NCBI RefSeq assembly: GCF_035189165.1
Contig: NZ_CP045246.1
Span: forward strand, 1 to 64,000
DNA from: Arthrobacter sp. JZ12
GTDB taxonomy: Bacteria > Actinomycetota > Actinomycetes > Actinomycetales > Micrococcaceae
Direction: 5' to 3'
DNA: 64,000 bases
The position numbers and the translations under genes were made by a program. Of the stretch, positions 1,417-17,042 are shown in pieces. The notes under the pieces were generated by a model. It worked only from the letters and a program-made list of their open reading frames with translations, searched no databases and was not told the DNA's origin. The stretch's first letter is position 1, and every line of letters starts with the position of its first letter.

Positions 1417-1879
1417 GCAGCTCAACGACGGGCGCTTCGTTCGAGACAGCTGTCAGCGGCTAAGAAATTAACAACTGTGGAAAGAAGTGTGGATAACTCC
1501 CGCCTGCCAGTGGACGTTAATGAGGACAACCCACAGGGCACCTGTGGATGCGCCGAATCACAAGAATTTCGTGCACATCCCTGCTTCTGCTCACCGCACC
1601 TGAGCCCACATGGTTTCAACAACGGCGAAGGCCGGGATCACGCGGATCTCATGGGTTATCCACAGTTTCCACAGAAGTTATTAACACTACTGATCCTTAA
1701 TCCATCGATCCTTTCCAAATAACATTTCCCCTCCGTCCAGCCCGGGCAGCCCACCTGCTCGGTCGCGCTAAGCTGTCACTTACGTAGAGTTGACCTTTGC
1801 TCACGCGTCCTCCTTTCGCAGAGAAGGGTCGAGGATGGGTGGCTTCCCTGATGTACTTCGCGAAAGGCGGCACCCCTCA
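1417..1879. other. oriC: Replication origin oriC (dnaA-dnaN intergenic region)
   Basis: This 463-base gap holds no convincing gene. It contains two perfect DnaA boxes in opposite orientation: TGTGGATAA at 1488-1496 and TTATCCACA at 1656-1664. Degenerate copies lie around them (TGTGGAAAG at 1476, TGTGGATGC at 1543, TTTCCACA at 1666). AT-rich tracts around 1461-1472 and 1678-1690 are candidate unwinding sites. Location between dnaA and dnaN is the known position of actinobacterial oriC. The dnaN promoter should lie in its right part, but I cannot place it firmly. Confidence 0.9.
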
Positions 1880-5696: not shown

Positions 5697-7999
<2,303 letters not shown>

Positions 8000-14196: not shown

Positions 14197-15063
14197 ATGA
14201 CCTACGGAATTCCGGCGGGCCGGCCGGACCAGGACGTTCCCGTGTGCCCACGCCACTCCGATCGTGTGAGTTACGTGCGGTGCCAGCGCTGCGGCAGGCC
14301 TGCCTGCCCGGAATGCCAGCGTCCGGCCGCCGTCGGGGTTCAATGCGTGGATTGCGTGCGGGAGGCTCAGCGCAGCGCACCTGTGCAAAAGACCGTATTC
14401 GGAGGGGCTGTCCGTCAGGGGCGTCCCGTTGTCACTTTCTCGCTCATCGGTGCTTGCGTGGCGCTTTTCCTGGCCCAAATGACCATCCCCGGCATCACCG
14501 AAATGCTTGCCTATGCCGGGGTCTATACCTCAGGAGTCACAACCCCGGAGCCCTGGCGAATGATCACTGCCGCGTTCCTGCATTCCACGGGTTTCCTTTT
14601 ACACATCGGGTTTAACATGTACGCCCTGTGGATTATCGGGCAGGCTCTGGAGCCGCTTCTTGGCAGATCCCGTTTCCTGGCGCTCTACCTGATTGCGGCT
14701 TTCGCCGGGTCAGTTGCCGTCCTGCTGCTATCCAACCCCCTGCAGCCGGTGGTTGGCGCTTCCGGTGCGGTCTTCGGGCTGTTCGGAGCCATGCTGGTGG
14801 TGCAACGCAGACGAGGTGGAGATGTGCGCCAGCTCGTCGTCCTGATTGCCATCAATACGGTTCTCGGCTTTGTGGTTCCCGGCATTTCGTGGCAGGCGCA
14901 CCTCGGTGGCCTTCTGGCCGGCGGCGCAGCTGCAGCGATCATTGCCTACACCCCGCGGAGCCGGAACCGTTCACTGATTCAGTGGAGCGGCTTGTCGGTC
15001 CTTACTCTGGTCCTCGTGGCGCTGACGTTCGTTGGAGCCGCTCGCGTGACGCAGCTCTTCTAG
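14197..15063 (+). CDS. Rhomboid family intramembrane serine protease with N-terminal zinc-binding domain
   Basis: A multi-pass membrane protease. The N-terminus (about 10-60) is a cysteine-rich B-box-like zinc domain (CPRHSDRVSYVRCQRCGRPAC, then CPEC and CVDC). The rhomboid domain follows with about six membrane helices. It includes HIGFNMYALW, the catalytic serine in GASGAVFGLFGAM and the catalytic histidine in WQAHLGGLLAG. The 288-residue length is typical of the actinobacterial fused form. Substrates are unknown. Confidence 0.92.
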   Translation: MTYGIPAGRPDQDVPVCPRHSDRVSYVRCQRCGRPACPECQRPAAVGVQCVDCVREAQRSAPVQKTVFGGAVRQGRPVVTFSLIGACVALFLAQMTIPGITEMLAYAGVYTSGVTTPEPWRMITAAFLHSTGFLLHIGFNMYALWIIGQALEPLLGRSRFLALYLIAAFAGSVAVLLLSNPLQPVVGASGAVFGLFGAMLVVQRRRGGDVRQLVVLIAINTVLGFVVPGISWQAHLGGLLAGGAAAAIIAYTPRSRNRSLIQWSGLSVLTLVLVALTFVGAARVTQLF

Positions 15064-15236
15064 TTATCAACAGCCCTTATCCACAACGGGGAAAACTTAC
15101 ACACATGTAATTCCACAGGTGTGGAAAAGGAGTTCCGCATTCTTGCGGGAAATCTTGTCTTGCGAGTGGAAGAGTTACACACAGCTGTGGAAAACCCGGT
15201 GCACAACGTGTGTATTAAAAACTCGGGCCACTGGGA
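15064..15236. promoter_or_regulatory. Cluster of DnaA-box-like sites outside oriC
   Basis: This convergent gap between rhomboid and the MFS gene holds one perfect DnaA box, TTATCCACA at 15077-15085, and six sites with a single mismatch. These are TTATCAACA (15064), TTACACACA (15097 and 15175), TGTGGAAAA (15120 and 15186) and TGTGTATTA (15209). Some are paired as inverted repeats, such as TTCCACA-GG-TGTGGAA. No strong terminator hairpin is seen. It resembles a DnaA-binding cluster about 13.5 kb from oriC; its role is inferred. Confidence 0.55.
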
Positions 15237-16502
15237 CTACTGCCGCGGAGCGGGATCCCAGCTCGAAAGCTCGGCGACCTCCCGCACGCCGCGCAGGGAG
15301 AAGAACAGCGGCAGGCCGGATCCAGCGATGATGAATCCGGCAGCGAAGAGAGCGGCACGGGTGCCTGCCGCGTCTCCCAAGAGTCCTCCCAGGAGCGCGC
15401 CGAGCGGAAATGCCCCCATGATCAGGAACCGCATTGTTGCGTTCACTCGCCCAAGCAGATGGTCAGGGCAGAGTTGCTGCCTCAGGCTGACGTTCGAGAC
15501 TGCGTAGACAATCTGTCCGAGTTCGCCGACCGCCAGTCCGGCGAGGAGGAGCAGCACCCACCATCCGGGCTGGGCAAGGGGTGTTAGCAGTGCAAAGGGC
15601 CCGGTTGCCACGAGGGAGAGCCAAATGATGCGGGCAGAGCCGAAGATCCTCGAAAGAAGCGGCGTAAGGGCTGCGCCGCCAAGCGCAGCCAACGACCCGA
15701 GGGCGATCATTATGCCGATCGCAGCGGGTGTGAGTCCCAGCTCCCGTGACATGAAGATGAACGTCACTGCTGACGCAAGGGCGAACGCGAAGTTACCTGC
15801 GGCGCTTGCAATCGCTACTGAGCGGAGAATCCGGTTGTTGAGAACGAAGAACAAGCCATCGCGAATCTGCCGCCACAGGTTCGGCCGCTCCGGTGACCGC
15901 TCGATCTCCGGCTCCGGAGACCTGATGGCCATCAATGAGACAGCAGATACCACGAAAGTAAAAGCCTGAACCAGGAGAACAGCGGCTGCCCCGATGAGTC
16001 CAACCAGCCACCCGCCCAAGCCTGGGCCCACAACCTGCCCGGACGCGCGAATCGTCTCCATCGCGGAGTTGCCGGCAAGCACGCGGTTCTTGCCAATCAC
16101 CGACGGTATATAGCTCTGGTAGCCCACGTCGAAGAACACACGGGCGAACCCGGATAGCAGGGACACAATGACCAGCTGAAAAATAGACAGAACGCCAAGC
16201 ACAGCCGCCGCCGGGATGCTGAGCATCAGGATTGCCCGGATCCAATCACTGGCTATCAGAACCGGGCGCCGGTGCACGCGGTCCAACCATGCGCCCGCGG
16301 GCAGTCCAATCAGTGCGAAGGCCAGGGTGGACGATGCCGCCACTAGCCCAACCTCGAAAGCTGAAGCCTCAAGGGTGAGCACGGCGAGCAGCGGAATCGC
16401 CACTCCGCTCACCTGCGCACCGAGCTGGCTGGTTGTCTGCCCGATCAGGAGCAGGCGGAAGTTCCGTATTCCGAGGAGCGAGGGCTGGGCCATGGCGTCC
16501 AT
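15237..16502 (-). CDS. MFS transporter (EntS/enterobactin-exporter-like group)
   Basis: A 421-residue major facilitator superfamily protein with about 12 hydrophobic helices. The N-terminus (LLGIRNFRLLLIGQTTSQLGAQVSGVAIPLL) and the loop GAWLDRVHRRPVLIASD match the drug/siderophore exporter subgroup. The substrate cannot be told from sequence. Start ATG 16502 (MDAMAQPS) is preferred; the frame is open upstream to 16586. The gene converges on rhomboid and lies downstream of crgA on the same strand. Confidence 0.85.
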   Translation of the reverse strand: MDAMAQPSLLGIRNFRLLLIGQTTSQLGAQVSGVAIPLLAVLTLEASAFEVGLVAASSTLAFALIGLPAGAWLDRVHRRPVLIASDWIRAILMLSIPAAAVLGVLSIFQLVIVSLLSGFARVFFDVGYQSYIPSVIGKNRVLAGNSAMETIRASGQVVGPGLGGWLVGLIGAAAVLLVQAFTFVVSAVSLMAIRSPEPEIERSPERPNLWRQIRDGLFFVLNNRILRSVAIASAAGNFAFALASAVTFIFMSRELGLTPAAIGIMIALGSLAALGGAALTPLLSRIFGSARIIWLSLVATGPFALLTPLAQPGWWVLLLLAGLAVGELGQIVYAVSNVSLRQQLCPDHLLGRVNATMRFLIMGAFPLGALLGGLLGDAAGTRAALFAAGFIIAGSGLPLFFSLRGVREVAELSSWDPAPRQ

Positions 16503-16619
16503 CCTGCCAGCTGTACTTACAGGAAGGCCGCTCACTCGGAACAGTGCTGCTGGAACGCCAATGGGCGCCCTCGGAGAGAGCGCCACTGGCTTATCTTCAG
16601 TTCGGACCTGGCGGCCGGC

Positions 16620-16865
16620 TTACCTCCACCGGGTAGTCATCAGGAATCCGACAATTGCAATTCCGAATCCGATGAGGATGTTCCATGATGCGAGGTCGGG
16701 GATCGGGAACCGGCCCTCGGAGATGTAGTAGACGAGAATCCAGAGCAGTCCCAGGATCATGAGACCGAACATCACCGGCTTGTACCAGACCGGATTGGGT
16801 TTCGGCTCCGAACTGTTGCGCGTCCTCGACTCGACCTGCTTCCTGCGGGACTTCGACTCGGGCAC
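16620..16865 (-). CDS. crgA: Cell division protein CrgA
   Basis: CrgA is a small membrane protein of the actinobacterial divisome that interacts with FtsZ and peptidoglycan enzymes. The 81-residue product has a basic N-terminus (ESKSRRKQVESRTRN) and two membrane helices (about 33-50 and 59-76) separated by the SEGRFPIPDLASW loop typical of the family. GTG 16865 is chosen because an excellent AAGGAGG ribosome binding site stands four bases upstream; the ATG at 16913 would give 97 residues. It is divergent from the sortase gene. Confidence 0.92.
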   Translation of the reverse strand: MPESKSRRKQVESRTRNSSEPKPNPVWYKPVMFGLMILGLLWILVYYISEGRFPIPDLASWNILIGFGIAIVGFLMTTRWR

Positions 16866-17042
16866 GGATCCTCCTTGACGGGCTGGGCTCCCAGCCGCTG
16901 TGTTTGCGGTCATACGGGCTCGGAAAGCGGCGATGACACAGGTTATCCTGAGACAGGACTATCGGCACTGTTCCAGGTGCCAATTCTAGCCAAGAAACGG
17001 ACACGCGAAGCCCGGCAGCATACCGGCAGGCAGGGAGAACGT

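Follow-up and report, generated by a model that had tools for sequence, protein, structure and literature searches.

The gap between a rhomboid-family protease gene and an MFS transporter gene of Arthrobacter sp. JZ12 (positions 15064-15236 of the window, i.e. the whole 64,000-nucleotide stretch analysed) raises the question of whether its DnaA boxes constitute an element with a role outside oriC. Searching this gap for TTWTNCACA revealed 7 sites with at most one mismatch, 3 of them exact (TTATCCACA at 15077, and TTTTCCACA at both 15120 and 15186) and 4 with a single mismatch; the count of seven in the preliminary description was thus right in substance, although under this consensus three boxes rather than one are exact. 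With TTRTCCACA as the query, 1 exact and 3 single-mismatch sites were found in the same gap. Its box density, 7 per 173 bp, was the highest in the window, followed by oriC with 3, and no non-overlapping 173-bp stretch exceeded 3 boxes. In the 3.31-Mb genome, TTNTCCACA was present in 58 copies, 3 of which were located within 118 bp at the gap, and a genome-wide pattern search found three such sites inside 500 bp nowhere else, answering in the affirmative the earlier question of whether the gap is an outlier. The Poisson probability of 3 TTNTCCACA sites is about 5e-9 per 173 bp and about 9e-5 after correction over all such windows; the non-coding gap thus holds more DnaA boxes than chance would account for, as a cluster outside oriC should. 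Two of the 7 boxes, at 15097 and 15175 (TTACACACA), are doubtful, and TTACACACA at 15097 was rejected as a DnaA box, since it sits in a separate palindrome whose four middle bases vary freely among relatives. It also counts against reading the gap as an element that the boxes of JZ12 itself are partly degenerate (TTATCAACA, TTTTCCACA).

Table 1. Features of the rhomboid/MFS gap of strain JZ12 and of its surroundings; identities are column means for 15 congeneric sequences.
Feature	Position	Strand	Remarks
oriC (dnaA-dnaN gap)	1417..1789		Comparison site
Rhomboid-family protease gene	14197..15063	+	PF01694, E 1.8e-33; synteny anchor in 97 relatives
DnaA box 1, TTATCAACA (TTGTCCACA, TTATCCACA or TTTTCCACA in congeners)	15064..15072	+	93% identity
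DnaA box 2, TTATCCACA	15077..15085	+	96% identity; tandem with box 1
Central core AACTTACACACATGTAATTC with palindrome TTACA-N4-TGTAA	15094..15113	+	20/20 columns invariant in the 15 congeners (partly by selection, see text)
DnaA box 3, TTTTCCACA (congeners mostly TTATCCACA)	15120..15128	-	99% identity; faces box 2 across the palindrome
Unconserved spacer	15130..15174		45 bp, 61% identity, 0 invariant columns
DnaA box 4, TTTTCCACA (congeners mostly TTATCCACA)	15186..15194	-	98% identity
Tail with weak boxes (within CCCGGTGCACAACGTGTGTAT)	15195..15215		85% identity
MFS transporter gene	15237..16586	-	PF07690; right-hand neighbour of the gap
crgA	16620..16913	-	Orthologues border the element in congeners and in further families; convergent neighbour in congeners

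The boxes are arranged as two tandem forward boxes, a palindrome and two reverse boxes (Table 1), and this order was kept across relatives together with place and sequence. The element directly follows the stop codon of the rhomboid gene and lies about 13.5-14 kb from oriC beside the cell-division gene crgA. In the tail, single-mismatch boxes were located at 15198 (TTGTGCACC) and 15209 (TAATACACA). Across genera the core takes the form AACTTACA-N4-TGTAATTC with a variable N4, which indicates a palindrome rather than a DnaA box; it is the probable site of a putative dimeric factor. Across the family, the spacing between the core and the following TGTGGATAA falls into clusters at about 72, 93, 104 and 115 bp, suggesting phasing along the helix (mean resultant 0.62 at 11 bp, with genomes that are related and hence not independent). 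Tandem double modules occur in many genomes, two copies 250-350 bp apart being common, and the core is inverted in two genomes (G061 and G119).

Relatives share the gene order dnaA ... ppi - rhomboid, so comparison within the family could draw on the stretch from dnaA to the rhomboid gene in 97 of them, sampled from 31 genera. The 800 bp that follow the rhomboid gene held at least one strict box in 97 of the 98 genomes and at least two in 89, G014 being the sole genome with none; box loss in close relatives, named in the preliminary description as decisive against a role, was thus looked for, and the boxes proved to be kept. The mean was 3.9 strict boxes per 800 bp, compared with 0.023 elsewhere between dnaN and the rhomboid gene (1.38 Mb), an excess of about 168-fold that is explained in part by the comparison stretch being mostly coding; the 500 bp before dnaN had a mean of 2.0. 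Alignment of 15 congeneric sequences gave 93-99% identity for the boxes as against 61% for the spacer, so that within the genus the boxes and the palindrome are near-invariant while the spacer drifts. Since these 15 sequences had been picked via the 20-bp core itself, the invariance of the core is partly due to selection; an exact core copy was, however, found in 12 of 12 congeners searched independently of this set. In congeners, the element is situated directly between the rhomboid gene and crgA. The convergent orientation described previously holds for JZ12, but the right-hand neighbour in relatives is often crgA and in none of the 97 compared is it the MFS gene, which is apparently an insertion between the element and crgA in the JZ12 genome. 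The arrival of this gene (15237-16586) left the DnaA-box element intact.

To follow the element beyond the family, a 50-bp sequence profile (R1) was searched by order and by class. In the JZ12 genome, the single R1 match at E<=0.01 was this site; at the same threshold 117 of the 149 genomes searched in the order had a match, the weak ones including oriC, as did 64 of 196 genomes of the class at 1e-5. The strong matches examined were mostly located between ppi-rhomboid and crgA. A strict pattern was matched in, among other named genera, Arthrobacter, Glutamicibacter, Zhihengliuella, Kocuria, Brevibacterium and Gordonia. The crgA-adjacent gap of nine genomes from a family taken to be Streptomyces-like (f29) contained TTGTCCACA, then TTATCCACA, then TTATCCACA inverted, an order that matches the element, and Pseudonocardia-like genomes retained a box pair in this gap; the palindrome was missing from the crgA-adjacent gap in the Streptomyces-like and Pseudonocardia-like genomes examined. 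It was also noticed that GTCACACCGGCGTCAAC or near variants are conserved between the boxes of the crgA-adjacent gap in Streptomyces-like genomes (L315-L323). An actinobacterial rhomboid-crgA-sortase-pabA-pknB region with the element was found on a contig labelled Vibrio cholerae 35D (WNZI01000003.1), which for this reason is probably a contamination. The preliminary description knew of no equivalent at this place in actinobacteria, yet a counterpart does exist class-wide, in the order ppi, rhomboid, element, crgA. Its view of the gap as a DnaA-box cluster outside oriC gained strong backing from the comparison. The element consists of more than DnaA boxes, however, its best conserved part being the palindrome, which also marks the whiB2 promoter. 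Taken together, the congeneric alignment, the box excess and the class-wide synteny indicate that the boxes are under selection, and because it keeps the same position across much of the actinobacteria, the element probably serves in the control of chromosome replication.

The palindrome recurs elsewhere in these genomes. TTACANNNNTGTAA was found in 2-4 copies per genome in 14 congeners, once in the element in each, whereas the reversed pattern, used as a control, mostly gave 0 per genome. The second site to recur was a divergent promoter between TIGR03089 and a WhiB-family gene that we take to be whiB2; there the palindrome adjoins a TTGACN hexamer. Upstream of whiB2-like genes in the order, the best match had at most 2 mismatches in 29 of 30 cases and at most 1 in 23 of 30, as compared with 10% and 5%, respectively, of random 800-bp windows; the narrower TKACACNNGTGTAA, searched in 23 genomes, matched 0-2 sites in each, most of them at the whiB2 promoter or in the element. 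The same palindrome (TTACACACGTGTAA) was present at a divergent whiB2-like/TIGR03089 promoter in L335 (site 1912, genome position 910911). We infer that one factor may bind both the element and the whiB2 palindromes; judging from the Streptomyces-like and Pseudonocardia-like gaps that lack the palindrome, such a coupling to whiB2 is not universal. BldD, which has half-sites similar to those of the element palindrome, was considered as the binder and not adopted, having a 1-nt centre compared with 2 nt here. Some palindromes elsewhere, such as a LacI-type operator in L370 and a site of an ABC transporter in L369, seemed to belong to different factors and were set aside. Palindrome-like sites were also seen near ribonucleotide reductase genes (nrd region; L340 at about 1499, L416 at about 1501), and another such site, GAATGACA-N4-TGTAATTC, was present between ung and a gene upstream of LytR_C in three congeners (L341 at 1574, L342 at 1605 and L408 at 1501), that of L342 being near groEL.

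On balance, we favour reading the rhomboid/MFS gap as a cis-acting, non-coding DnaA-binding element that may restrain initiation and that carries a candidate site for a second factor shared with whiB2. According to this proposal, DnaA would bind the boxes and a putative dimeric protein the palindrome, the two forming one complex. Lying only about 13.5 kb from oriC, the element would be copied soon after initiation, which would at once double a high-affinity DnaA sink, or a DnaA-inactivating site, so that less free active DnaA would remain and re-initiation would be hindered. The palindrome factor would tune this restraint and, through its site at the whiB2 promoter, might tie replication control to the cell-division programme. 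A negative role is proposed after the precedent of B. subtilis and S. coelicolor, in which, according to reviews, DnaA-box clusters close to oriC keep initiation from occurring at the wrong time (PMC5742627, PMC4585315). The sign of the effect, based on analogy and on position, is the least certain part of the proposal. More tentatively, this may be a class-wide element co-bound by DnaA and a putative dimeric transcription factor which otherwise would have nearly only the whiB2 promoter as its target, giving a two-site regulon that couples initiation to septation.

Several known systems resemble the element in part. The datA locus of E. coli requires an IHF site and works through ATP hydrolysis. 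Like the element, it is a non-coding DnaA-box cluster in an intergenic gap, and its position relative to oriC is conserved among strains (PMC4585315); the locus is not homologous, however, and the extra site of the element is a different palindrome. In B. subtilis, the DnaA-box clusters (DBC) restrain initiation from outside oriC, according to the account of Okumura et al. 2012 given in PMC5742627. They occupy other loci than the element. To our knowledge, no palindrome for a second factor is embedded in a DBC. The clusters of S. coelicolor, reportedly named H69, H24 and D78 by Smulczyk-Krawczyszyn et al. in 2006, are likewise actinobacterial and near but outside oriC. Cosmid H69 reportedly carries crgA, so that cluster H69 may be the same rhomboid-crgA locus, whereas D78, for which a phenotype is reported, may be a different locus. 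The Streptomyces-like genomes analysed here keep boxes in the rhomboid-crgA gap but, unlike the element, have no central palindrome there.

A site of the DARS type, in which paired boxes make ADP-DnaA release its ADP and the element would promote initiation, is an unlikely alternative on geometric grounds. The right half in many relatives consists of an inverted pair followed by a weak box (TTATCCCCA-N2-TGTGGATAA-N3-TGTGCACAA), the order of the E. coli DARS1 and DARS2 cores, and a head-to-head box pair is the hallmark of DARS (PMC10380432). Both E. coli cores, read directly, have the inverted boxes N5 apart rather than N2 as in the usual form here, and the assignment was rejected on this spacing, the N3 to the third box being the only part of the core geometry that agrees. 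In addition, the element is oriC-proximal, unlike the E. coli DARS loci, and DARS2 depends on IHF and Fis.

We give little credence to the idea that the gap is a secondary, backup or former origin or an outlying part of a divided oriC, with the box pair and GTTAATAAC as the unwinding unit. In some congeners, the left half of the element has a likeness at the end of oriC next to dnaA, where the same palindrome-like site is present; in G030 this end has a box pair, TGTTAAT and TTACA-N4-TGTGATTC and is matched by R1 (G030:C1:3333543-3333588, E 8.6e-6). The box pair is followed by GTTATTAACAC in oriC and by GTTAATAACTT in the element of many relatives, GTTAAT after a box pair being common to the element and actinobacterial oriC. 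However, the element seems to lack an AT-rich unwinding region comparable to that of oriC (AT-rich peak over 30 bp, 63% in the gap versus 70% in oriC), the dnaA-dnaN gap of most genomes inspected has its own box pair and AT-rich repeat intact, and a separate intact oriC is present. The cumulative GC-skew curve reaches its minimum at 3.0 kb, although this dip is shallow and is equalled near 20 kb. The likeness of the left half to the dnaA-proximal end of oriC makes descent of the element from an oriC sequence possible, an active second origin being less likely, and no similar sequence was found in phage and plasmid collections, leaving a recent mobile origin unsupported. Two other box arrangements were observed: a strict pair within 142 bp near rpsF-ssb (L354, 822-963; genome 3237321-3237462), about 70 kb away on the opposite side of oriC, and TTATCCACA and TCATCCACA 3 bp apart at 6124-6144 of the window, within a long reading frame (5945-7999) that by position is gyrB.

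It is similarly improbable that the gap serves chiefly as promoter or operator for a transcript so far unrecognised, with DnaA acting like any other transcription factor. Such a role is favoured by the presence of the palindrome at the whiB2 promoter as well, beside the hexamer; against it are the convergent neighbours in congeners and the frequent double copies of the element. Moreover, a promoter scan of 14900-15400 detected no sigma-70-like promoter, an Rfam search no RNA family, and RNA folding no unusual fold (z -1.7 and -1.0). A bidirectional transcription terminator with small inverted repeats that mimic DnaA boxes is most improbable. Two terminator-like matches at 15133-15150 speak for it, but they sit in the spacer, which is not conserved. 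In several congeners a GC-rich hairpin distinct from the element precedes it, and what is conserved are asymmetric boxes that no T-run accompanies.

For the proposed DnaA-binding element restraining initiation, DnaA-box clusters outside oriC are already known as a kind; what seems new here is the crgA-adjacent place kept class-wide, the fixed architecture and the palindrome common to whiB2. A literature search retrieved no description of the rhomboid-crgA gap, the original S. coelicolor cluster paper being outside its reach. Little is known of the sites and proteins that limit DnaA in actinobacteria, the class to which both Mycobacterium and Streptomyces belong. A small conserved element near oriC is simple to delete, move or multiply, which makes control of initiation by DnaA titration or inactivation directly testable in these bacteria, and the palindrome in common with the whiB2 promoter offers a bait for a factor that might connect replication and division.
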